From IMG/VR virus record IMGVR_UViG_3300006163_000008, positions 1-42,997 of that record: a stretch of DNA of 42,997 nucleotides; one strand, given 5' to 3'. This document shows, piece by piece, positions 2,862 through 37,768 of this stretch. Under the pieces are notes generated by a model. It saw nothing but the letters and a program-made list of their open reading frames with translations. It ran no database searches and was not told the DNA's origin. Source of the stretch: a virus. The first letter of the stretch is position 1. Each line of letters starts with the position of its first letter. The position numbers and the translations under genes are program-made.

Positions 2862-4030
2862 CCGACCGTCGCTGTGCCGGTGATCGCGCCGGGCCGCGGC
2901 AGCGGTGCGACGCCGGGCATCGTGATGTCGGTGGTGCCGAACGTGCCACCGGCGATGCGTGTCTGCAGCGTGACGACGCGGTGCACGCCGTCTACGCGGT
3001 TGATCTGCTCGGATACTTCCAGATACCACACGTGCGTGTCGTTGATCCAGGCGAGCGTGGAGCCGGGATCACCGAACTCCGGTGCGCCCCACTGGCCCGG
3101 CGACAGATACGACTGCAGCTGCGCGATGACAGCGTTCGCGACGGTCGTCGGGTCATTGCCCGCGTAGCAGGTGACCGTGAACTGGACGTCGATGGTGGTG
3201 TACGTCGGGTCGGCAACGAAGACGAGGAAGTTCACTTCGCGTTGCGCCTGCAGCGACGCGAGCACGTCCGACTTCACCTGCGCTGGCACGGCGTTCCCGG
3301 CGTCGTCCACGAGCACGACGGTCACGCAGCGCGGCACGTTCGCGGTGCTCGTGCTCGCGTTGTAACCGTCGATCGCGGTTGCGCGTGCGACGGACGGGTT
3401 CGCCTGCGCGAGCAGCGCGAAGTCCTTCGGCAGGATCGGCCGCGGCGCGAGCAGCGTCAACAGATCGGACAGCCGTGCCAGGTACGCGTCGTCTGTCTCG
3501 GCGTCTTGCCCGCCGGACGTTGCGCCGTTGAGCGTGATGGTCGAGATGAAGTCGAGCTGGTCGAGCGGCTGCACGGTGCCGGTCAGCCCGGACGCGGCGG
3601 CGCCCGGGTCGATCGCACGGATCGCGACGTTAGCGACGACGGTCTGTCCGAACGGGAACGTGAAGTCGTCGGTCGTCTCGAACGCGTAGCTGTCATACGA
3701 GGCGGGCGGTGTGATCGCGAGCAGCGTTCCGGCGGGTACGGCGTACCCGGCTGTGTCGAGCGCGGTCCAGGTGGTCGTGCCGCCCGCAGCAACGGCGTCG
3801 ATCGGCGGCAGCCCGAGTACCGTCGCTCCGTAGTACCGGAAGATGGATTCGGGCACGAGCGTGATCAGCGTGCGCAGCTCGGACGCAACCTGCGCGAGCG
3901 ACTCAACGAGCCACGCTTCCAGGTTCGCGGGCGACGGCAGCCAGCCGGGCACGTTCGTCTCGATGTACGCGAACGCTTCTTCGGCCAGGTCGGTCGGGTC
4001 GGTTGCGACCGGAACGTCGATGTAGCCCAC
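2858..4030 (-). CDS. Baseplate J-like protein
   Basis: 390 aa, typical length for the gpJ/Baseplate_J family that forms the wedge of contractile-tail baseplates. Recognisable blocks are the N-terminal EEAFAYIETNVPGW, GTTTWTALDTAGYAVPAGT near residues 85-105, and the central GAASGLTGTVQPLDQLDF followed by GGQDAETDDAYLARL, the most diagnostic gpJ signature (short residues, then D-x-x-Y-L-x-R). Starts 2 bp after the gp25-like gene ends and overlaps gpI by ATGA. Confidence 0.92.
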   Translation of the reverse strand: MGYIDVPVATDPTDLAEEAFAYIETNVPGWLPSPANLEAWLVESLAQVASELRTLITLVPESIFRYYGATVLGLPPIDAVAAGGTTTWTALDTAGYAVPAGTLLAITPPASYDSYAFETTDDFTFPFGQTVVANVAIRAIDPGAAASGLTGTVQPLDQLDFISTITLNGATSGGQDAETDDAYLARLSDLLTLLAPRPILPKDFALLAQANPSVARATAIDGYNASTSTANVPRCVTVVLVDDAGNAVPAQVKSDVLASLQAQREVNFLVFVADPTYTTIDVQFTVTCYAGNDPTTVANAVIAQLQSYLSPGQWGAPEFGDPGSTLAWINDTHVWYLEVSEQINRVDGVHRVVTLQTRIAGGTFGTTDITMPGVAPLPRPGAITGTATVG

Positions 4031-4642: not shown

Positions 4643-5608
4643 TCACTGCACGAATCTCGGGACCGTTCGAATGAAGCGCGAAGAGAACGTCACGCTCTGC
4701 GCGTTCGACACGCTGTACCGGCTATGAAGTCCGCCGCCCGCCGCGATCGAGACGCCACGCAGCGCGCGGCTGTACGACGACATGTAGCCGCCCGCAGGCT
4801 GGTTGTAGAGGCTCATCGCCAGGCTTGAGATGCCGTTGCCGTTGATGTCGGTCAACGTCATGTAGGCGTTCGCCACTCCGGCAACGTTCGGGTAAGCCGA
4901 GCAGCCCCATTCGGTCAGGTACTCGCCGCCGCGTGGCAGATAGATGTACGGCCCGGTCAGATCGACGGCCGATCCGCTCGACGTTGACGCCGATGCGTCG
5001 ATGTCAGCTTCGATCGGCGGACCGCCTATGAACAGCCACACCGCCCACGCCGCGTTCCATGAGAACGCCCAGCGCGTAATCCCGAACCCGTACTGATTGC
5101 CGGACGGCGTGAACGTCATGATCCAGATGTCGCCATCGGCCGGGGATGCAGGTGGTGTCGTGTTGCCGTTCGGCGTGGTCGTGATCTTCGGCAGCCCGAC
5201 GTCGGCCGGAGTGATCGCGGACCACACCGCCGCACCGCCGACGCCTTTGAGCCACTGTCCGTTGACGACGGCGGGCACCGTTGCGACGGTCGTCCACTGC
5301 GTGTCGTAGTCGGTCGCCGTCTTCTTCGCGAGCAGCTGGCCGGTCGTACCGCCAGCGACGACACCTGGCCCGGTAGCGCCGGTCGGTCCTTGCGGTCCGG
5401 TTGTGCCTTGCGCTCCGGTCGCGCCGGTCGCGCCCTGCGGTCCTTGCGGACCCGTGTTCCCGATCGGTCCTTGCGCGCCTTGCGGTCCTTGCACGCCTTG
5501 CGGTCCTTGTGCACCTGTCAGTCCGGTGGGTCCTTGGATCACGAGGTCGGCCCAGCCGGTCGATGTCTTGACGCGGATCGCGCGCGGTGTGTCGATCGTC
5601 GGACTCAC
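4643..5608 (-). CDS. Collagen-like tail fibre protein
   Basis: 321 aa. GTG at 5608 forms GTGA with the stop of the preceding gene. Residues about 28-72 are Gly-X-Y repeats ([19 protein letters not shown] and onward) expected to form a trimeric collagen-like shaft. The remaining 240 residues are Trp-, Gly- and Thr-rich, with an end domain (residues about 205-321, including [19 protein letters not shown]) that looks like a C1q/TNF-like jelly-roll tip, which is an inference. The same frame is open far upstream on the minus strand, but that stretch is the shadow of the next gene. Likely host-contact fibre. Confidence 0.82.
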
Positions 5609-6951
5609 AGCGTGTGTCCTGCGAGGTCGGCCCATGTGACGTGCGTGCCGGTGCCGATCGCGATCGGCGGCGGATCGCTCGTGATCCAGATCGCGCCGAC
5701 AGGTGCGTTCGTCGGTTCGACTGCCTGCTCGTAGACGGCGAGCACGCCCGGCGCGCCCTGCGCACCTGTCGGTCCTGCCGGACCCGTTGCACCGGCGGGA
5801 CCTTGCGTGCCGGTGGCGCCCTGCGGTCCTTGCGCGCCGGTTGCGCCGGTTGCGCCTTGCGGGCCGCGCAGGCTGCCGCGCGATGTCCACGTGCTCGTGC
5901 CGGTCTTCTCGTAGTACGTGCCGCTCGCGGAGTCCAGGTACCAATCCCCGACGATGCCGGTCGCGGGCGCAGGAGCGCCGCTGCCGGTGAACCAGACCTC
6001 GCCCGGCGTACCTGCCGCACCTTGCGATCCCGTGGCGCCAGCGGGTCCCTGAGGACCTTGCGCGCCCGTTGCGCCGGTGGCGCCCTGCGGGCCGGTGGCG
6101 CCCGGCACGCCTTGCGGCCCGGCTGGTCCCTGCAGGCCGGTGTCGCCCTTCGGTCCTTGCGCGCCGGTGGCGCCCTGCGCGCCCGTTGCGCCCGGCGGTC
6201 CTTGCGCGCCCGGCGTGCCAGCTGCGCCGGTGTCGCCCTTCGGCCCGGTGCCGACGCGCGTCACCGACAGCCACGTGGACTGCGCCGCCGACGTGAGCGC
6301 CGTCGCCGTGTCGGAGTACGCCTGCAGCCCGAGCACCGTGCCTTCGTTCACGTACATCTCGCCGCCCGTGATCACCGGCATCACGGACGACTTGACGGTC
6401 GGCGTTCCCTCGATCAGTCCGTACACCTGCACGGCGGTCAGCGCAGCCACGCGCACGGCGCGCTCGCCGGTCTGTTGCGTGCCCGAGAACGCAACCGACG
6501 CGGTGACGGCGTACACGCCTGCGCTCACACAGATGATGCCGCCCGCGTTCGGCCCGCTCGTGACGCGTTGGAACGTGTCGTCGCCGTGCTGCATGATCAC
6601 GCCGGTGATCGGCACCGGCGTCCACACGTTCGCCGGAACGGTCGTGCTCGGCTGCCCGGCGAACAGCGTCAGCGTGTCGTCCGCGATGCCGCCGCCCTTC
6701 GGCGGCGCCAACGTCATCACCCACGGTGTCTCGCGCTCATCGAAGACGACGAGGCAGTCGTCGCCGCGAATCGGCAGCGCGGAGCTGGGCGACCACGGGC
6801 ACGGTCCCCATTGGATGCGCGAACCGTCGAACGCCTGCACCGTCACGAACAGGTCGTCGTCCACGGACGCAGGTGTGTTCGCGATCGTGCCGTGCACCGC
6901 GGACTGCGGCGCCGGTGGCGCGTCGGAGATCAGGTCGAGCAGCTCTGTCAT
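5605..6951 (-). CDS. Baseplate-attached fibre: OB-like domain, jelly-roll and collagen repeats
   Basis: 448 aa; ATG 6951 overlaps the hub stop (ATGA). Residues 1-70 ([19 protein letters not shown], then [14 protein letters not shown]) look like the small beta-barrel that docks proteins to the baseplate spike. Residues about 80-200 include [19 protein letters not shown], a C1q/TNF-like pattern. Two blocks of Gly-X-Y repeats follow (about 215-300 and 345-400), separated by a spacer with [17 protein letters not shown], a sequence commonly found between collagen repeats in bacterial and phage proteins. A probable trimeric side fibre; domain names are from memory of patterns, not from a search. 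Confidence 0.8.
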
Positions 6952-8804
6952 GTCTCGGGCCAGTGGCGCGCGACGAAGCCGGACGTCGGATGCATGTTCG
7001 GGTTGAAGCCGGGACCTCCCCAACCCTTGCCCCACTGTCCGGTGCCGAAGTGCTGATTGCCCTTCGTTGTGTGGAAGACGATGAACGCGTGCGTGAGGTT
7101 CGTGTACACGGTCAGGTACCTGCCGGGTCCGGCGGCGCCCCACGACATCAGCGGGCCGGACGTCGGCGCAGGTCCACCCGGGCGCAGCCCGAGTCCACCG
7201 GCGGCGAGCACGGCGCAGACAGAGCCTGAGCAGTCGAAGCCGACGCCCGGGTCGCGTCCGGTGCCGCGGTCGGGCACACCGGCGCGCGCGTGTCCGCCTC
7301 CCCACACGTACGGGTAGTGATGGTTGTGGATCGAGATCGCCGCGGCGTACGCCTGCTCGACCGCGTTCGTCGCCGGGTTGTCGGCTTCGCCGCTGCCGCC
7401 GCTGGCCGCGTTCAGCTTGCCGAGCGTGATGCCGTCGCGTGTGCGTGGGTCGGGCACCTGTTCGGTGTCGGCGGCTGGTTCCTTCAACGGCTTGCCGCGC
7501 TTGCGCAACGTGATCGTCGCGTCCGCGTCGTACAGGCTGCGGCGCACGTCGTGCACGATCCAGATGCCGTCCGCCGGGCCGAGGTCATGCAGCTGCACGG
7601 TGCTGCCCGGGTCGGCAGCCCAACGCGACGCGCGCGCGGTGATCGTGACTTCGCTGGACACCTTGCCGTTGTCGAGGTCGAAGTCGATCGCGGCGACGCC
7701 GGGTGTCTGCTCGCTGACGGTGACGGGTGTGCTCAGCGCGAGCAGGTCGTCGTCGGCCACGAAGTAGATCCGTCCCTCGTTGCAGAAGCAGCGCCAGTTC
7801 ACTTCCTGCGCCAGCCGCTGCAGGCACGTCCACGAATCCTCGGGGTGCCCGTTGACGGCGCCGCGGCGGAACTGATACGGCAGCGTGCGCCGCGTTGCGC
7901 GTGTGTCGGACACGCCCGGCACCGAGCCGTTGCGAAGGTACTTCCTGTACGCGCCCGACGAGTACGTGCTCCACGCGCGCAGCCCTTGCGCCTTGTAGAT
8001 CGTGACGGCGCACTGCGCGTTGAACGACTGGTCGGCGGCGAGCAGCTTCGCCTTCGGGTAGCCGTGCACCGAGTTGATCCGCCAGCATCCGTAGTCGTAC
8101 GTGCCGTTGCTGTTCGGCCCGCCGACCGCACCGGCGCGGCCCGATGACTCTGCGAGCGCGATCGCAGCCATCGTCGGTGCGACGGCGCGCGGTCCGCCCG
8201 CCTGAATCCACAGCGACTGCAGCTGCGCCGAGTTGTACGTGCCGTCCTTTGACGGCGACGGTGGCGCGCTCGTGTCGGCGGTGGTCGTGCTCGCGGCAAC
8301 GGCCTGCTTCTTGTGTAGCTGCGGGCAGACGAACGACGGCGCCGGGTGCAGCTCGCGCACGAGCGAGAGCGCGAACTCGGCGCGGGTGACGGTGGCACGC
8401 GAAGCCGTCTCGACCTTCGGCTTCACCTTGCCGTGCCCGGACGTCGCCTTGCGCGGGCCGCGGATCGCGCGCAGCCGCGCCACGTCGCGGTCTTCGAACG
8501 TCAGCGTCAGCTGGTCGTCCTGCTTCGACACCTGCGCGAGCCGGAACCAGAAGCGGTCGAGGCGCACGTCGATCGTGTGCGCGAACAGACCGGAACGGAG
8601 CAGCGTGCGCGCCGGGTCGTGCAGCGTGACGCGCAACGTCGAGGCGCCATCGGTCGTGCGTTCCAGCTCGCCCTCGATGATGCTGTTCTGCACGCGCTTG
8701 TCCAGGCTGTGCGCCGTGCGCCCGCGCACGTCGAGCACGAACGTCACGATGTCGAGGTCGATCACCGGCGCCGGTGCAACGGAACGGAACGCGAGCGCGC
8801 TCAT
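6948..8804 (-). CDS. Baseplate hub protein with embedded lytic transglycosylase-like and C-terminal NlpC/P60 domains
   Basis: 618 aa. Residues 1-150 and about 315-445 form a gpD/gp27-like hub ([52 protein letters not shown]). Inserted at about 185-295 is a lysozyme-like domain: IALAESSGR with Glu219 as likely catalytic acid, then [15 protein letters not shown] and [10 protein letters not shown]. Residues 480-618 are an NlpC/P60 cysteine peptidase: Cys525 in GFDCSGSV and His572 in NLTHAFIVF. One polypeptide therefore offers a glycan-strand cutter and a stem-peptide cutter at the tail tip, fitting local wall digestion during DNA entry. Lies between the LysM adaptor and the fibre. Confidence 0.86.
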
Positions 8805-9526
8805 GGCAGCCGGATCACCTGTCCGGGCACGATCGCGCGCGGATCGCGCAGCCCGTTCAGCTGCGCCAGCTCAACCCAGCGGTTCGCGTCGCCCAGCTGC
8901 CGCGCCGCAATGGAGAGCAGATCCTCGCCCTCACCGAACTGTGTGCTGGTCAGCGTGCGTCCCTTCGGCGCCACGACGTGCCGCTTGCGCTTCGCGAGCA
9001 GCCGCTTCGCCGGGGAACCTTGCGTGTGCTTCGCCGCCTTCACGCGGCGGCGCCGGGCCGCGCTCTTCTCGGTCAGGTACGTGTCCTGCACGTACTCGTA
9101 GAGCACGACCGTCACTTGCTGACGTGTGCGGTTGCCATGCTTGTTCATCAGCGCGTCGCCCCACGTCAGTTCACCGACGACCCACGTGCGTTCGGTGTGC
9201 GGAATGTGCTGGCCGGTGGCGGCGACGTGGATGCGTGGCGGCTCGCGGTTGGAGCCGGTCGGCCGCGCCATCTTCTCGATCGTCGCGATCTGCGACTCGA
9301 CGGACGCGCCTTCCGACCAGCGGTCGAGTAGCAGCGCCAGCGTCAGGTGCATCGCCGGTGGCGCGCGGAACGTTGTGATCGGCGGACGGCGCGGACGCGT
9401 GACCTCATCCCAGCCGCCGTAGCCAGACGACACATCGGGCCGGTCCTCCGCGAGGCGGCACGTGATCGAGAGCGGCGGGTCGTACGCGTGCAGGCGCACC
9501 CAGCCGACGCGCGGCGACGCAGGCAT
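8801..9526 (-). CDS. LysM-domain baseplate hub adaptor (P2 gpX/T4 gp53-like)
   Basis: 241 aa. The last 55 residues are a LysM domain (LSIAARQLGDANRWVELAQ, then NGLRDPRAIVPGQVI). In contractile injection systems such proteins sit between tape measure and hub, where LysM binds the tube end or peptidoglycan. The N-terminal part is beta-rich (WDEVTRPRRPP, LALLLDRW), followed by a basic linker (KSAARRRRVKAAK). ATG 9526 directly abuts the stop of the tape measure gene. Overlaps the hub start by 4 bp. Confidence 0.85.
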   Translation of the reverse strand: MPASPRVGWVRLHAYDPPLSITCRLAEDRPDVSSGYGGWDEVTRPRRPPITTFRAPPAMHLTLALLLDRWSEGASVESQIATIEKMARPTGSNREPPRIHVAATGQHIPHTERTWVVGELTWGDALMNKHGNRTRQQVTVVLYEYVQDTYLTEKSAARRRRVKAAKHTQGSPAKRLLAKRKRHVVAPKGRTLTSTQFGEGEDLLSIAARQLGDANRWVELAQLNGLRDPRAIVPGQVIRLP

Positions 9527-20458: not shown

Positions 20459-20936
20459 GATCGTCTACCTCCGCGAACGGATCGGTGTCGTCGGCTGCCG
20501 GTTCTTGCCCGTTGTCTTCGTCGGTTGCGTCGCGGAGACGCACGCTCGTGCGTCCCCACCTATCCGGGTACTGCCGCTCAAGCAGCCACGCAGCTGCCTG
20601 CCAATTCTGTGTCGCCGCCTGACTGATCAGCGCGACATTGCGTACCTCGCCTTCGCTGCGTGCACGCTGCACACGTTCGCGGAGCAGGTCGAACTGTGCG
20701 CCCTCGCGGTTGAGCCAGCGATGCAGCGTCACGCGGTCGATGCCGACCGCACGGCACGCGACGCCGATGTAGTTGCCGGTGCGCAGGATCGCGCACAGCT
20801 GCTCGACCAGCTCGTCGCTCAGCTGCAGGCGCATGCCGATGTGCGGGCCAAGATGGAACGCGCACTTGTCGCTGCCGATCATGGCGCGCTTGCGGCACTG
20901 CTCGCCCTTCGTCGTCAGCTGCGTGCACTGCGCCAT
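20421..20936 (-). CDS. Probable terminase small subunit with N-terminal zinc-binding motif and HTH
   Basis: 171 aa from ATG 20936 (shares one base with the previous TGA). Residues 3-28 have a Cys/His motif (CTQLTTKGEQC, then DKCAFHLG) that probably binds zinc. A helix-turn-helix follows (NYIGVACRAVGIDRVTLHRW, residues about 55-75), typical of small terminases that recognise the packaging site. The tail is acidic (DNGQEPAADDTDPFAEVDD). It directly precedes and overlaps terL. A gene regulator is the alternative, less likely from position. Confidence 0.82.
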   Translation of the reverse strand: MAQCTQLTTKGEQCRKRAMIGSDKCAFHLGPHIGMRLQLSDELVEQLCAILRTGNYIGVACRAVGIDRVTLHRWLNREGAQFDLLRERVQRARSEGEVRNVALISQAATQNWQAAAWLLERQYPDRWGRTSVRLRDATDEDNGQEPAADDTDPFAEVDDLAAARARRASGA

Positions 20937-21691
20937 CAGCTGCTGACCGCCATCTGGCGCACGTCGCGCCACGCGATCTTGATGTCGGGGCGTCCGTTCG
21001 ACTTGACGTACGGCGTGCAGACGCCGGGCCACAGCTCGGCCATGCGCGCCGACGCGGTGCGCTCGATTCCTTGCGCGTACCTGTCATGCAAGCCGCCCGC
21101 GTTGCTGCCGTTGCGCGGCACCGTGAAGCTGAGGTCGCGCAAGCGTGCGCTGTCGTAGCCGTGCGCGATCGTCTGCAGCGTGAAGTCGCGGTCCACCTTC
21201 AACGGCAGGCTGAGCCGGTAGTTCGCAGGCGTGTCCGTGTTGACGAGCACGCAGCAATCGCAATAGCTGCACCACGTGACACCGCCGCGGCGCGCGTTCC
21301 ACGCGTACTGCGCATACTCCAACGCGACGAGGCCGAGGCGCCCGTCGTGCGAGTCCGCCCAGCGCTCCGCACGTTCAAGCGCGTAGTCGGCGGTCACCTT
21401 CATGTTGCGGTGATGCAACGGGTCGGTGCGCCAGAACGCGGAGATGTCGTCGTCCAGGAGCCAGAACCAGTCGAGGCCGACAGCGCGCGCGTGCTCCAAC
21501 GCAGCCTGCCGCGCGAACGCAAGCCCGGCGTCGTTGCGTTCCAGCACCGCCACGTCGTACGTCGGCGCGTCGTACAGGTCGCGGTCCTGCGGCTCAACGA
21601 ACACAAGCGCGCGGAAGCCGACCTCGGCAAGCAGCTGGAACAGCGGCGCCTTCGGCCGTTGCTTGCTACACACGAACACCGGCGCGTTCAC
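20936..21691 (-). CDS. TET-associated DNA glycosyltransferase
   Basis: 251 aa; GTG 21691 overlaps the TET-gene stop (GTGA). GT-A-like fold: N-terminal strand-helix (APVFVCSKQRPKAPLFQLL), Arg/Asn-rich donor region, and the acidic triad Asp80-Asp82 in WFWLLDDDISAFW, the expected metal/nucleotide-sugar site. Later GYDSARLRDLSFTV and SNAGGLHDRY are motifs I associate with glycosyltransferases paired with phage TETs. A cluster of Cys (WCSYCDCC) lies near residue 140. Likely transfers a sugar to hydroxymethylated cytosine in phage DNA; sugar unknown. Adjacent to terminase, so modification is probably finished before packaging. Confidence 0.8.
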   Translation of the reverse strand: MNAPVFVCSKQRPKAPLFQLLAEVGFRALVFVEPQDRDLYDAPTYDVAVLERNDAGLAFARQAALEHARAVGLDWFWLLDDDISAFWRTDPLHHRNMKVTADYALERAERWADSHDGRLGLVALEYAQYAWNARRGGVTWCSYCDCCVLVNTDTPANYRLSLPLKVDRDFTLQTIAHGYDSARLRDLSFTVPRNGSNAGGLHDRYAQGIERTASARMAELWPGVCTPYVKSNGRPDIKIAWRDVRQMAVSS

Positions 21692-22509
21692 GTCGCCACC
21701 TGCGCGAACCGTGCCCGCTCACGTTCGGTGCGGCGCTGCGCGTGCAGCCGTGCGTTGTCCACGACGGGATCGCAGCGCCACATCTGTTGCAGGCTGTAGA
21801 ACACGATGCTGTAGCGCCAGCCGCTCGGCCGTGTGAACCGGAACGGCGTGACGCCGTGCAGGATCGACTGTCCGTCGAACATGAGCAGCGAGTGGTCGCG
21901 CAACGTGAAACACACGTCCAGCTCGGGGCAGACCAGATCGCCACCGGCGCACGCGTTCTTGAACACGAGCATGTTCGACCAGCATCCGGCGAAGTTGCCG
22001 CTGTCGAAGTGGTACGGCAGCTGATTGTTCCGGTTGATGATGCCGCTCGTGAACACACCGCCGCCGAGGCGCCACTCGGGCAGCACCTTGCTCACCGTCG
22101 CCTCGTGCTGCGCGTACAGCTCGCCGTGCACGCGCCGGTACCACTCTTCGACCACCGGCGCCAGCGACGCGATGGCCTCGTGCGCCTCGGGCGCTTCGCG
22201 TGCAAGCGTTGCGCGATGGCACGTCTCCTTGCCGCGGATCGCTTGCTTCGGCGCGTAGCCGAACGTGCGCGACACGCTGTACATGCCGTCCGTCCGTCCC
22301 GCCTTGCCGAAGTGAATGCTGCGCAGCGCGGCGACAACGTGCGGCAGCCGCTGGTCCAACTCGATGTAGACCGCGCACGGATGCACCTGCTTCGGCAGGA
22401 ACAGCGCGCACGAGCCGGTCAGCTTGCGCTTGACGTGGCTCGCGTTCGCAAGCATGCCGCGGTACGCGTTCGCGTCCACGTCGTGCAGCTGCACGTCAAC
22501 GTGCCGCAT
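21688..22509 (-). CDS. TET/JBP-family 2-oxoglutarate/Fe(II) DNA dioxygenase
   Basis: 273 aa. Double-stranded beta-helix dioxygenase core: iron ligands His167-x-Asp169 in LPYHFDSGNF and His218 in SILHGVTPF, and the 2-oxoglutarate-binding Arg232 in SGWRYSIVFY. The preceding GGVFTSGIINRNNQLPYH and following WSNMLVFKNACAGGDLVCPEL are the pattern of phage TET/JBP-like enzymes. Members oxidise 5-methylcytosine (or thymine, in JBP) in DNA to the hydroxymethyl base. Lies between a ParB-like gene and the glycosyltransferase. The substrate here is inferred, because no C5-methyltransferase is visible in the window. Confidence 0.88.
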   Translation of the reverse strand: MRHVDVQLHDVDANAYRGMLANASHVKRKLTGSCALFLPKQVHPCAVYIELDQRLPHVVAALRSIHFGKAGRTDGMYSVSRTFGYAPKQAIRGKETCHRATLAREAPEAHEAIASLAPVVEEWYRRVHGELYAQHEATVSKVLPEWRLGGGVFTSGIINRNNQLPYHFDSGNFAGCWSNMLVFKNACAGGDLVCPELDVCFTLRDHSLLMFDGQSILHGVTPFRFTRPSGWRYSIVFYSLQQMWRCDPVVDNARLHAQRRTERERARFAQVAT

Positions 22510-23140
22510 GCGCCGCCCACTGCACCGCGTCGGAGTACGTGTCGAGCGACTGCGCCGCCATGATCGTGTCGAGGTCGCGGATCACAGCTTCGTACGTTCC
22601 CTTGTCGTAGCTGAGCATGATGCGGAACAGGTCCGCCTCTCCGAGTGCGTACGGTCGGTTCGCCGGGTTCGTGTCCGCCTCCGCGGCTACCATCTCGCCC
22701 GGGTCCAGGTACGCGAGCAACGCCTGCACGTCTTCCTGCGAGTAGCCGATGCCTGCGAGCATGTCCGCGTCGGCCATCGGCTTGAGCAGCTCGGCAAGCA
22801 ACGCGTCGTCGTACATGCCGAGGTCCGCGAGCCGGTTGTCCGCGAGCAGGTACGCATCCACTTCGCCGTCCTGCAGGTCGGTGCGTGTGACGGCGATGTG
22901 CGTCCAACCTTCGGCTTCGGCGGCGCGCCACACGTGATGCCCGGCAACGATCGTGCCGTCGTGCTGCGCGAGCACGGGCCGCTGCTGACCGAAGCGCTGC
23001 AGCGACCGCTGGATCTCGGCTACGACCCCCTGTCGAGGGTTACGTGGGTGCGGCTGCAGGGCCGACACCGGCACGAGGGCATCCCGTAGCTCGGCGTTAC
23101 CGCGCCACACAGCGACGCCTACGGTCGTCTCTTGCATCAT
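22496..23140 (-). CDS. ParB/sulfiredoxin-like protein, modification-associated
   Basis: 214 aa. Residues about 20-110 form the ParB-like nuclease fold: VSALQPHPRNPRQGVVAEIQ, then TIVAGHHVWRAAEAEGW with the G-H-x-x-x-R motif, and AYLLADNRLADLGMYDD. The C-terminal 80 residues (LGEADLFRIMLSYDKGTYEA) lack any methyltransferase motif (no DPPY, no PCQ), although ParB domains of this type are often fused to or next to DNA methyltransferases in phages. It overlaps the TET start by 14 bp, so it is translated together with the modification genes. Two ATG codons (23140 and 23137) are possible starts. Confidence 0.85.
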   Translation of the reverse strand: MMQETTVGVAVWRGNAELRDALVPVSALQPHPRNPRQGVVAEIQRSLQRFGQQRPVLAQHDGTIVAGHHVWRAAEAEGWTHIAVTRTDLQDGEVDAYLLADNRLADLGMYDDALLAELLKPMADADMLAGIGYSQEDVQALLAYLDPGEMVAAEADTNPANRPYALGEADLFRIMLSYDKGTYEAVIRDLDTIMAAQSLDTYSDAVQWAAHAAR

Positions 23141-23244
23141 CTGCTCAGTACCTGCGTTCTGTCGGGTTTTTTACGCGGAAAGTTTGGCCCTGTCCGCTCG
23201 GTTCTCTCGTCGCCGGTCCCTCCCCACCCGCGCGTGCGGTGTGG
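23141..23244. other. Non-coding gap between HNH and ParB genes; possible packaging-site region
   Basis: 104 bp, with a run of six T at 23167-23172 on the plus strand and an AT-richer patch (GCGGAAAGTTT) unlike the surrounding sequence. A gap between an HNH endonuclease gene and the terminase side is where cos sites lie in many HNH-encoding phages, but here three other genes separate it from the small terminase. No clear palindrome seen. Confidence 0.3.
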
Positions 23245-23514
23245 TCAGCCGCGCTGCAGGTTGCAGCCGACGTGCGCTGCGCGCAGGTTGTCGAGCGCAT
23301 CGGTGCCGCCGTGCCGCACGCGTGTGATGTGGTCGGCGGTGGTAGCGCCGGGCTTGCCACACAGCTGACAGATGCCGTCGTCGCGTTGCACTACTGCTTG
23401 CACGATGCGGCGCCAGCGTCTGCCTGCACCTGCACGCTGATGCGTTGCGCACCGTCCGTGCTTGACCGCGGCTGCACCGCAGTGCGGTGCGCTGCAGACG
23501 GTGCGTGCACGCAC
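23245..23514 (-). CDS. HNH endonuclease
   Basis: 89 aa from GTG 23514. Zinc-binding HNH: CSAPHCGAAAVKHGRCATH at the start, then ICQLCGKPGATTADHITRV with the D-H pair, and ALDNLRAAHVGCNLQRG. In cos-type phages an HNH protein beside the terminase is needed for packaging; an intron-type homing role is the alternative. It ends 105 bp before the ParB-like gene. Confidence 0.88.
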   Translation of the reverse strand: MRARTVCSAPHCGAAAVKHGRCATHQRAGAGRRWRRIVQAVVQRDDGICQLCGKPGATTADHITRVRHGGTDALDNLRAAHVGCNLQRG

Positions 23515-23521
23515 TGGCCGC

Positions 23522-23608
23522 TCAGCCCCATCCGTTGAAGTACGCGAGCACTACGAAGATGGCTATCACCACGAGGGCGATGTCGCTGATGGTGGGCTGC
23601 GTTCTCAT
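23522..23608 (-). CDS. Very small single-span membrane peptide
   Basis: 28 aa: short polar N-terminus (MRTQPTISDI) then one hydrophobic helix (ALVVIAIFVVLAYFNGWG). ATG 23608 forms ATGA with the stop of the upstream gene, which supports translation. Too small for a family call. Possible roles in phages are membrane signalling or superinfection effects, but nothing here shows which. Confidence 0.5.
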   Translation of the reverse strand: MRTQPTISDIALVVIAIFVVLAYFNGWG

Positions 23609-31611: not shown

Positions 31612-32021
31612 CACCGCCGCCGCTTCTGCGTGCCGAACAGGAACTCGCGCCGCAGCATGTGCGCCAGCATCGTGTCGCCGCGTTGGAAGCGTGACGTGAC
31701 TTGCGCCATCGCTTCGATCATGCTCTCGTCGGGCAGCTTCTCCAACGTGCGCAGCGCCGGTGCACGCAGCTGCGACTGCGTGACGCGTTCGCCGCCGCGG
31801 CTCAGCTTCCAGAGCCGGTTGTCTTCATCGAAGGCGACCATGCCGTAGCGGCGCATCCAGGCGAGGCGGATGCCAACCGGGCGGGCGCCCTCTTCGGCGG
31901 GGAAGCCGAGGTCTTCGGCTAGCTCGTGGCTGGTGACGCCGCGCCCGTTCGTGTTCTCCGCGATCCGGAACAGGATGTCCAGGTCGCGGAAGTCGTACAG
32001 CGATGCGTGCAGGTCGCTCAT
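31611..32021 (-). CDS. Winged-helix-like DNA-binding protein
   Basis: 136 aa from ATG 32021. Residues about 10-75 look like a winged helix (FRDLDILFRIAENTNGRGV, TSHELAEDLGFP, then RLAWMRRYGMVAFDED). A helical C-terminal half ends in KRRR. Likely a transcription regulator. Confidence 0.65.
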   Translation of the reverse strand: MSDLHASLYDFRDLDILFRIAENTNGRGVTSHELAEDLGFPAEEGARPVGIRLAWMRRYGMVAFDEDNRLWKLSRGGERVTQSQLRAPALRTLEKLPDESMIEAMAQVTSRFQRGDTMLAHMLRREFLFGTQKRRR

Positions 32022-32716
32022 GCCGTCCCTCCGTTGTCGTTGACCAGCTTGTATGTCAGGCCGCCGCCGCGTGTGATGCGGTCGGCGCGCAGCAACCCTT
32101 GATCGCGCAGCGTGTCGAACGCGCTCGCTGCGGTGCGGGTTGTCATTGCCATGCCGCCATTCCGTTTCAACCCGTCGATCACGACGGACATCGTGAAGCC
32201 GTCGCTCAGTTCGTCGCCGTGCGTGCCCAGGTAGTTACGTACCGCGTCCACGCGTAGGTCGTGCTGCTTGCGTGCGCGTGCCGCGTTGCCTGCCGCGTGC
32301 GCGGCGCTGCGCTGCGCCGGTGCGCCCTGCTTCGGTCCGGGCTGCGTGATCTCTAGCTTGCGCAGCACGACCTGCAGCTGCGACCGCATCTGCATCAGCT
32401 CAGCGCGTTCGGTGTTCAGCTCGGCCAGCTTCGTCTCGATGTCGCGTAGCTCGATGCGGAACGGTTCGGCTGCGTCGCGTTGCAGCGCGGCGATGCGTGC
32501 CTTGAACGAGAAGTCGCGTGCGGTTGCAGCCGCTGTCGGCGGCGGTGCGGGCGGTGCGGGCGGCGCGGGCTTGCGCTTCGTGGACGCTGCCTTCTGCCAC
32601 GGCTCGCCGTCGCGGCGCGGCTTGCGGTGTGCGGCACTCAGGTGTCCGCCGAGTGCGTGCTGCGATCCGAACGACTTGCCGCACTGCGGGCAGGTGTAGT
32701 CAGTGGCGGTTGCCAC
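32018..32716 (-). CDS. C2H2 zinc-finger/coiled-coil/winged-helix protein
   Basis: 232 aa from GTG 32716. Residues 9-30: YTCPQCGKSFGSQHALGGHL followed by SAAH, a C-x2-C...H-x4-H finger whose helix contains ALGGH. Then a Pro/Ala linker, a coiled coil (IELRDIETKLAELNTERAEL, about 88-120), and a C-terminal winged-helix-like part (SVVIDGLKRNGGMAMTTRT, DTLRDQGLLRADRI). Probably a DNA-binding regulator just downstream of the repressor. The coiled coil suggests a dimer. Confidence 0.72.
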   Translation of the reverse strand: MATATDYTCPQCGKSFGSQHALGGHLSAAHRKPRRDGEPWQKAASTKRKPAPPAPPAPPPTAAATARDFSFKARIAALQRDAAEPFRIELRDIETKLAELNTERAELMQMRSQLQVVLRKLEITQPGPKQGAPAQRSAAHAAGNAARARKQHDLRVDAVRNYLGTHGDELSDGFTMSVVIDGLKRNGGMAMTTRTAASAFDTLRDQGLLRADRITRGGGLTYKLVNDNGGTA

Positions 32717-36012: not shown

Positions 36013-36518
36013 CGACACGCCCACTCGCCTCCCCTTCCGTGCGTGTTCATCCATCCGGCGGCGAGCGCGTTCGCGTACGGCGACCAGACGCTGAACCGGC
36101 TGTACGGCGTCGAGCGCCACGTGCTCGGCAGGAACTGATAGAGGCCGGACGCGCCGGACGGGTTCTGCGCGTACGGGTTCAGGTGGCTCTCGCAGCCTGC
36201 GCGCCGCCACAGCGTCTCGCAGCTTCCGTAGGCGACGCAGGCAAGGTTGATCGCTTCGGCGGTGCTGTCTGCGTGCGCCAGCGTCCGCGTCAGCTGCTTC
36301 ACGCGCCGGTGCGCGTTCGTGTACCGCAGCCACATGCGCCGGTAGCGTCCGTGCTCCTGCCGGTAGCGCAGCTGCAGCCGCTGCTCGCGGGCCGTGTGTT
36401 CCTCCTCGTGCACGATCGGCTCGGTGCGGGTGCGCTCGGGTGCGCCACGCACGCCGCGCGCCCAGAGGATGAGCACGATCAGCAGCGCGATCACGGTCAC
36501 CCACAGCACGGCGCGCAT
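36009..36518 (-). CDS. Membrane-anchored lytic transglycosylase/lysozyme-like protein
   Basis: 169 aa from ATG 36518. N-terminal hydrophobic segment (AVLWVTVIALLIVLILWARG, residues 3-22) acts as an uncleaved signal or anchor. A charged stalk (30-90) follows. The C-terminal domain has RRAGCESHLNPYAQNPSGA (Glu in CESH as likely catalytic acid) and SGLYQFLPSTWRSTPYSRF, then AGWMNTHGRGGEWAC. This is the Rpf/transglycosylase-like fold with an outside-facing active site. Being in the early operon, it is not the lysis enzyme; exclusion of superinfecting phage or envelope remodelling are guesses. Confidence 0.82.
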   Translation of the reverse strand: MRAVLWVTVIALLIVLILWARGVRGAPERTRTEPIVHEEEHTAREQRLQLRYRQEHGRYRRMWLRYTNAHRRVKQLTRTLAHADSTAEAINLACVAYGSCETLWRRAGCESHLNPYAQNPSGASGLYQFLPSTWRSTPYSRFSVWSPYANALAAGWMNTHGRGGEWACR

Positions 36519-37768
36519 CAGCCTGCCGCCGCGTTGACCGCGTTCTGCTTCTCGACCAGCTTGTCGATCAGCCACGACGCCTCGGCACGTGTCAGGTCGT
36601 CACGCAGCGGCGACCAGTGCAGCACGTCGTTCTCGTCGCGCCCGCCGAGCCGCTTGACCAGCTCACCGACGTCGCACTCACGCAGGTTCTGCGCAATGGC
36701 AAGCCACAGCCCGGCTGTCGTGATGTGCCCGCCGCGGTCGCGCAGCTGCCCGACGAGTACATTCAGCTTGTCGTACTGCGCCTCCGTGCGCAGCTTCGTC
36801 TGCCGTTCCTCCGTGTACGTGCCCGCGTCCGGGTCGGGTGCCAGGTCGTCGGCGGGCGCCTGCGGCATCGGTGCCGGGTCGAACGCCGGTGTCACCACCG
36901 GCGCCGCCGCCCGGGCGCCGCCGGGCATGCTCGACGTCTGAGCGCCTGTAACGGCGTCTAAGGCGCTGCGGGCGTCTGCCATGCTGGCAGCCGCGGCAGG
37001 GGACGGCTCGGGCACAGCGGGTCGCTCAAGGACGCCGGTGACCGCTACCGCCGGGGACGGGCTGGCGCCCTGCAGCTGGGCGCCGTTGCCGGGCTGCGGG
37101 CTGGGCGGCAGCCGCCGGTGCGCGGCACCACCGGCGGCGAGGTTGCCGTAGCCGACGTCCAGGTCCAGCGTCGGCACCACGTAGCGCACGACCTGTCCTT
37201 CCTTGATGCCGCGGCGCTGGTCGAGCACGAGCCGGGCCGGTACGAACGGCGCGCCGCCGCCGACCGTCGCGACGAACTGCATCATCGTCGGCAGCTCGTG
37301 CGCGGCGTTCGCGCCGCGCGTGATCAGCCGCCAGCCGAGCACGGTGTCCAGCTCGGGCAGCGCGACGACGAGGCGCGTGTAGATGTCGCAGCGGTCGATG
37401 CCTTCGGCGTTGCAGATGCACGGCCCGCCGCTCAGCTCTTCGTCCATGCCGTCGCACATGCGCAGCCGTTGCGTCGCGCCTTCCCACAACTCGTACGTCT
37501 GGCGCAGGCTGTAGTGCGGCATCACGAGCACGGGCAGCACCGGCGCGTCGGTGTACAGCTGCCACTCGTCGCCGTTCGGTCCCTTCCAGGCGGACGGCCT
37601 ACCGCCGCCGTATAGCCCGGACGCTTGCTCAAGCAGCTGCTTGCGCGGCGAGGTCAGCCGGAACGATTCCAGCTTGCGCCCGGGCGCCTTCGGTTGCTTC
37701 TCGCCGCCAACGCGGATGGCACCGACGAGCGCGAGCCGCCGCTGCAACTCAATGATCGGTGTCGGCAT
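36518..37768 (-). CDS. Probable recombination directionality factor (phiC31 gp3-like)
   Basis: 416 aa. The N-terminal 215 residues carry the gp3-like pattern: TPIIELQRRLALVGAIRVG, RKLESFRLTSPRKQLLEQAS, GLYGGGRPSAWKGPNGDEWQ, YELWEGATQRLRMCDG and PCICNAEGIDRCDIYTRL, then WRLITRGANAAHELPTMMQF. A proline/alanine linker (about 220-320) leads to an extra helical domain (LRTEAQYDKLNVLVGQLRDR, LTRAEASWLIDKLVEKQNAV) also seen at the ends of phage recombination proteins. Large serine integrases need such a factor for excision, and one is present 2 kb away. A DNA-binding hydrolase is the alternative. Confidence 0.75.
   Translation of the reverse strand: MPTPIIELQRRLALVGAIRVGGEKQPKAPGRKLESFRLTSPRKQLLEQASGLYGGGRPSAWKGPNGDEWQLYTDAPVLPVLVMPHYSLRQTYELWEGATQRLRMCDGMDEELSGGPCICNAEGIDRCDIYTRLVVALPELDTVLGWRLITRGANAAHELPTMMQFVATVGGGAPFVPARLVLDQRRGIKEGQVVRYVVPTLDLDVGYGNLAAGGAAHRRLPPSPQPGNGAQLQGASPSPAVAVTGVLERPAVPEPSPAAAASMADARSALDAVTGAQTSSMPGGARAAAPVVTPAFDPAPMPQAPADDLAPDPDAGTYTEERQTKLRTEAQYDKLNVLVGQLRDRGGHITTAGLWLAIAQNLRECDVGELVKRLGGRDENDVLHWSPLRDDLTRAEASWLIDKLVEKQNAVNAAAG

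Follow-up and report, generated by a model that had tools for sequence, protein, structure and literature searches.

At injection, phages that infect Gram-positive hosts have a thick wall to cut through. Can one baseplate protein carry both a glycan-cutting and a peptide-cutting enzyme for this task, and if so, how are such proteins put together across a family of related viruses? The question is raised by the virus record IMGVR_UViG_3300006163_000008 (42,997 bases, from a soil phage; hereafter "the window," meaning the whole stretch analysed), whose contractile-tail module includes, on the minus strand at 6948..8804, an ATG-initiated open reading frame (ORF; stop codon 6948-6950) for a 618-residue protein; all window features given below are on this strand. 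A first-pass annotation made from the sequence alone had described the product as a gp27/gpD-like tail hub with a lysozyme-like domain inserted in its middle (E219) and an NlpC/P60 peptidase at its end (C525, H572), and had called the presence of both activities in one hub uncommon. Our computational follow-up upholds this architecture and discards the claim of rarity. Very probably, the protein serves a contractile-tailed phage as its baseplate hub, has a surface slot filled by an SLT_3/c-type-lysozyme-like muramidase and an NlpC/P60 peptidase at the C-terminus, and would cut the wall at injection. With less assurance, we lean towards a broader reading in which a hub loop is a dedicated slot that exchanges unrelated lysozymes, the C-terminal peptidase is swapped independently, and one lineage (apparently two more) has the chain broken at the slot edge, which would give a two-polypeptide ring with the muramidase N-terminal on the second polypeptide.

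A hub core interrupted by one domain and ended by another

Judged by its modelled fold, the 618-residue protein is a baseplate hub of the gp27/Mu gp44 type. Its core (residues ~15-171 plus 300-444) aligns with solved hubs at Z scores of 16.6-18.0 over about 250 residues, the best match being the contractile injection system hub of S. coelicolor (9gtr_q, Z 18.0, 261 residues), with A-1(L) (8kea_A, Z 17.6), T4 gp27 (2z6b_D, 16.9) and Mu gp44 (1wru, 16.7) close behind. The N-terminal half (residues ~16-170; 8295..8759) is delimited by structural matches, a profile of this half and predicted local distance difference test (pLDDT) values mostly >85, and the C-terminal half (residues ~300-444; 7473..7907) by the model, structure matches and family profiles. 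The predicted viral proteins that match best are tail proteins from Gordonia phage GMA6, Arthrobacter phage StevieBAY and Brevibacterium phage Cantare; by sequence profile alone, the window hub matched only phrog_52 (E=0.022).

The two halves are separated by an inserted segment, the slot (residues ~172-299; 7908..8291), which is missing from two relatives, L100 and L121. In these the hub residues flanking the slot are contiguous, and we place the insert at residues ~172-299 because their hub runs straight across the site: empty-slot hubs read "QPVAGQTDKRALRKALPYQF" at the junction, and the window insert sits between "QAVAA" and a stretch of 15 residues (letters not shown). Within the slot lies an SLT_3/c-type-lysozyme-like domain (residues ~188-295; 7920..8243), recognized by Pfam SLT_3 over residues 200-280 (E=6e-12, 46.3 bits against a cut-off of 27), by sequence similarity to insect c-type lysozymes (2fbd, E=4e-6) and by a predicted fold that superposes on the fly lysozyme 2fbd (Z 13.5, root-mean-square deviation (rmsd) 2.8, 106 residues, 32% identity). 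Our AlphaFold2 models are monomers, and the full-length model has a mean pLDDT of 79.2. A first model captured the hub and NlpC parts and left the insert at pLDDT <50, because its alignment mixed both types of insert that occur in the family; a second alignment with SLT_3 rows (30 rows, 18 of them covering the SLT_3 insert, namely the window, the relative L043 and 16 SLT_3 loci as fragments) raised the insert to 79-96 over residues 181-290. The monomer model contains both catalytic folds, the absence of either of which the first-pass annotation had named as counting against its own reading.

At the other end, an NlpC/P60 domain occupies residues ~475-618 (6951..7382; pLDDT mostly 80-95, with a dip at 501-520). 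A profile built from the C-terminal domains of 11 relatives matches solved NlpC/P60 proteins (8er5 best, E=9e-7; a RipA chain, 8e-6), and the predicted fold superposes on the P60 domain 3gt2 (Z 13.1, rmsd 2.5, 121 residues). Both residues singled out earlier are correctly placed: C525 (7230..7232), the candidate nucleophile, and H572 (7089..7091), the candidate catalytic base, are invariant in 11/11 relatives, as is H614 (6963..6965), a possible third residue; H585 varies among the 11 domains.

Muramidase or transglycosylase in the slot

Which reaction might the slot domain catalyze? The candidate catalytic acid, E219 (8148..8150), is invariant in a 20-row hub alignment whose slot domains are of two types, and D237 (8094..8096) aligns by sequence with an Asp of fly lysozyme that we take to be the catalytic Asp of c-type lysozymes. 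That the domain is instead a lytic transglycosylase, leaving anhydro-MurNAc product ends, is a serious but lesser possibility: the Pfam family is named SLT_3, IagB and EtgA, both enzymes of type III secretion, are matched weakly, and a single conserved Glu is enough for transglycosylases, whereas the closest solved folds are c-type lysozymes and D237 pairs with the fly lysozyme Asp. EtgA keeps an Asp too, so this residue cannot decide between the two. On the modelled fold and the alignment, we consider a hydrolytic muramidase at least as likely as a transglycosylase, because c-type lysozymes are the closest relatives with solved structures and D237 has its aligned counterpart among them.

The slot of most relatives holds a different lysozyme. 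A profile of the inserts of 19 relatives matches 8b2h (E=9e-20) and 8b2e (E=2.7e-12), described as GH184 muramidases (PMC10394673), and does not match the window's own insert. We rejected the idea that all inserts belong to one family, since the relatives' profile fails to detect the window insert (1.1 bits; 3.2 bits for the L043 insert). By profile comparison, the two insert types are different families within one slot.

Slot and C-terminus across the hub family

Four scans of viral contigs supplied the relatives. The census covered 85 loci (30 + 54 from two scans, plus L043), which collapse at 90% identity into 63 distinct hubs; the truncated hubs L025, L037 and L038 were dropped before tree building and counting, leaving 60 with both hub halves. 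All 85 loci were compared with profiles of the two hub halves, of two types of lysozyme and of four types of peptidase; as they were built from family members, these profiles recognize their own kind by construction. The slot is GH184-like in 50 of the 60 hubs, SLT_3 in two (the window and L043) and empty in eight. Among the 57 complete hubs, 34 end in an NlpC-type domain, 10 in an M15-like one and five in M23, and eight have no class by profile. Pfam identifies NlpC/P60 in one of these eight (L117, E=1.2e-21) and gives below-cut-off matches to NlpC/P60 in L129 (4.6e-4) and to M23 in L138 (3.8e-5); it finds no peptidase in the C-terminus of L136, and the remaining four (L133, L135, L137, L139) stop soon after the hub core. 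The M15-like class rests on our own profiles and on motifs that we presume to be typical (S-x-H...D and H-x-H), with no clear support from Pfam, PHROGs or NCBIfam (VanY at E=0.011 for L128). A lysozyme-type insert is joined to a profile-recognized peptidase in 48 of the 57 complete distinct hubs, and within the family the combination can hardly be called uncommon.

Two further architectures were seen along the way. One 961-residue hub (L027, 3908-6790) carries ~230 residues beyond its NlpC/P60 domain; we had labelled this part an amidase by eye, a label that we dropped as it has no profile support. A large tape-measure-like protein of L057 has SLT_3 (locus 3001-3303) followed by a segment that, by eye, is NlpC-like and resembles the window C-terminus, and the portion cut out for comparison had no match in PHROGs. 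This protein is a possible source of such modules.

Are slot and C-terminus exchanged independently of the core? On a hub-core tree of the 60 hubs that excludes both regions, the slot state requires six changes, the C-terminal class at least 15 and splitting of the gene three. The SLT_3 inserts give the clearest case. A 22-row tree restricted to the nearest hubs makes L121 the sister of the window (96/95) and L100 that of L043 (97/91), and the slot is empty in both L121 and L100; forcing the window and L043 cores together is rejected by the approximately unbiased (AU) test (p=0.003). Yet in a 28-row domain tree the SLT_3 domains of the window and L043 are sisters (95/96). The remaining 16 members of the clade around these four hubs carry GH184-like inserts. 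The C-terminal class did not cluster on the 22-row tree beyond what shuffling gives (43/200 shuffles were as low).

Because the two SLT_3 inserts are each other's sisters and the hubs that carry them are not, the trees suggest that the SLT_3 module moved between hub lineages. A single gain in an ancestor of the window and L043, followed by loss in L121 and L100 and with no transfer between lineages, is a less probable account that we nevertheless take seriously: it, too, would make the SLT_3 domains sisters, and forcing the window, L043, L121 and L100 into one group is rejected only at the borderline (AU p=0.049). Against it stand the separation of the window and L043 cores, and the position of each as sister to an empty-slot hub within a clade whose 16 other members carry GH184-like inserts. 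The constrained groups were picked after the first tree had been seen, and these p values are indicative only. From the sequence comparisons taken together, slot and C-terminus are independent exchange sites, and the enzyme pair of the window is one combination of several.

Do both domains cut?

Several points weigh against reading the protein as a hub with two working enzymes. The C-terminal domain of the window, taken alone, scores 13.7 bits against a cut-off of 23 for NLPC_P60 (PF00877), the sub-threshold match spanning residues 498-540; several relatives exceed the cut-off, and a chance motif is rejected on the strength of the profile and fold support. The third NlpC/P60 catalytic residue has no sure candidate (H614 is possible). 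The predicted template modelling score (pTM) of 0.54 means that the relative placement of the domains is predicted unreliably. Finally, L100 holds the peptidase alone, with no SLT_3 or GH184-like match elsewhere in its 38,518-base record, which is possibly incomplete, and two enzymes are accordingly not indispensable in the hub family.

Could one of the two domains be catalytically dead, kept for wall binding or structure? We think this improbable. It would fit the divergence of the C-terminal domain from Pfam NlpC/P60 with its unsure third residue, the precedent of RipD, which NCBIfam names as an NlpC/P60 protein without activity, and one relative (L125, 4878-7484) in which an Asp stands in the slot domain at the expected catalytic Glu. 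However, the Cys and His are invariant in 11/11 domains, a DCS motif occurs in 31/31 of the longer matches of NlpC type, and 51 of 52 GH184-type matches (48 by script pattern, three by eye) and both SLT_3 inserts retain the slot Glu.

Hub genes split at the slot edge

In six of the 60 hubs, the gene is split into two ORFs: the first stops just past the hub N-terminal half, and a new ORF starts at the lysozyme domain. Four of these (L017, L020, L118, L119) form one clade (100/91), with L032 and L138 separate from it. The junctions are ATGA in L020, TAATG in L118, a stop with GTG one base on in L017 and a 13-base overlap in L119; L032 has a 131-base gap and L138 several possible starts. Assembly or sequencing errors, which draft metagenome contigs and the untidy L032 and L138 junctions might invite one to suspect, are an unlikely source of these six splits, given that the four clade members come from four contigs in four data sets, break at the same place and have differing, gene-like junctions. 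The fission looks real in L017, L020, L118 and L119, and we are less sure of it in L032 and L138; hubs encoded by split genes would be built from two chains.

Dual-enzyme hubs in known systems

Hubs that join a glycan-cleaving to a peptide-cleaving domain are a known kind, of which the mid-core exchangeable slot and the split hubs are variants. Published precedents, together with the family census above, overturn the supposed rarity of the pairing. In diffocin, a contractile machine against Gram-positive cells, a single polypeptide, CD1368, is described as combining a gp27-like hub with a lytic transglycosylase and with an NlpC/P60 endopeptidase (PMC10996793; PDB 8v3w). It resembles the window hub in joining a hub to both kinds of domain; according to the structural description, it differs in that both enzymes are C-terminal of an uninterrupted hub core and that its transglycosylase is MltA-like (Tyr-Asp-Asp, PMC10996793) rather than lysozyme-like. 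The cyanophage A-1(L) hub gp15, whose structure is among the best matches of the window core, is described as having lysozyme, endoglucanase and peptidase domains (PMC10966104; PDB 8kea), the isolated endoglucanase and peptidase domains attacking host cells and single mutants being inactive or poorly expressed (PMC10966104). This functional analogue speaks for our reading of the window hub. As in the window hub, glycan-cleaving domains lie inside the hub of what is in this case a trimeric myophage hub, and a peptidase ends it; the lysozyme (56-265) and endoglucanase (266-430), by the residue ranges of that account, are near the N-terminus and not in mid-core, and the host is a cyanobacterium with an outer membrane, for which EDTA was used to permeabilise (PMC10966104). 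The further proposal of the first-pass annotation, that two enzymes suit a thick Gram-positive wall, is a weak argument, because the phage of a host with an outer membrane has the same kind of hub.

Among phages of actinobacteria, Rhodococcus phage E3 gp119 (NC_021347) is a hub-position protein with SLT_3 and NLPC_P60 (E=1.9e-21) in one polypeptide, and Finch gp52 (NC_054724) is a hub-position protein with SLT_3. Their SLT_3 domains share the D-x-G-(L/C)-W region with the window. E3 gp119 differs in that neither domain is terminal (229-314 and 398-485 of 806), and its core is without secure sequence homology to the window family (hhalign probability 2.4%). Its identity as a hub rests on gene position, annotation, a weak match to phrog_52 (E=0.0013) and a low-coverage structural match in BFVD to M9MUG9 (806 residues), which we took to be E3 gp119 from its length. 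In Gordonia phage GMA6 (NC_030906), Orf37 has a homologous hub C-terminal half (hhalign E=4e-9) and ends in NlpC/P60, and Orf36 carries a GH184-like lysozyme; unlike in the window hub, each of the two enzymes ends one member of a tandem pair of hub-like proteins (20880-22241 and 22257-23603) with uninterrupted cores. The two enzymes of the window are there spread over hub paralogues. For a mid-core slot with exchangeable lysozymes, and for split hubs, our literature search, consisting mostly of listings, returned no published description.

Genomic setting and host

The module order in the window is sheath, tube, tape measure, LysM baseplate protein, hub, collagen-repeat protein and baseplate J, and the position of the hub gene, after the tape measure and LysM baseplate genes, fits a hub of gp27/gpD/Mu gp44 type. 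Directly upstream lies the LysM baseplate gene (8801..9526; LysM E=2.2e-5, PHROG baseplate families). The next gene after the hub (5605..6951), whose ATG overlaps the hub stop codon (ATGA), is a possible spike N-terminal region fused to collagen repeats (Collagen E=4.5e-20 for its 5605-6807 part); the N-terminal region is short and, by eye, may be an OB-fold spike. Comparable collagen-type genes come after the hub in L003, L017 and L020.

All 26 of the 26 phage records matched by the window sheath are from phages of actinobacteria (Gordonia 14, Arthrobacter 10, Brevibacterium 2), and G+C near the hub is 66-74%. By kinship only, the host is likely actinobacterial. Two scans of genome contigs for hub relatives in bacterial genomes or prophages gave 48 and 75 pattern matches, none of which was confirmed, and the L021 hub had no match in the phage collection.

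Elsewhere in the window, a TET-associated glycosyltransferase gene (PF20691, E=1e-14; 20936-22509, minus strand) adjoins an ORF at 22496-23140 (minus strand), and the same neighbourhood has a gene for a Tet/JBP oxygenase (PF12851, E=2.2e-11) and another that is ParB_N-like at a score below cut-off (4.8e-5). By these family matches, the group looks like a cytosine hypermodification cassette beside the terminase. A member of the Gp3-like recombination directionality factor family (36518-37768, minus strand; PF18897, E=6.6e-24) hints, on its family match, at a temperate life style. At 32018-32716 (minus strand), a phage protein has a C2H2-type zinc finger (PF13912, E=2.2e-9).

A probable scaffold for exchangeable wall enzymes

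How might such a hub work? The hub fold, the insert position, both enzyme folds, the conservation of candidate catalytic residues and the modular exchange were computed here, and from these we infer a trimer, its location in the virion, contraction-driven delivery, the two activities and the bonds cut. As the fold implies, three hub copies would form a ring between tail tube and spike, each with its core interrupted by a surface slot for the muramidase and with the peptidase on a flexible C-terminal linker. Sheath contraction would drive the tube tip into the wall, where both enzymes would attack the area close to the spike, severing glycan strands and stem peptides and making a local opening through which the tube can pass.

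While the dual-enzyme idea itself has already been published for diffocin and A-1(L), the family described here presents the hub as a scaffold on which wall enzymes can be exchanged at two sites. Its natural variants, in which the slot holds either lysozyme type, is empty or lies at a chain break, make testable the share of each enzyme in entry and host range, as well as the formation of a symmetric hub ring from two half-chains.

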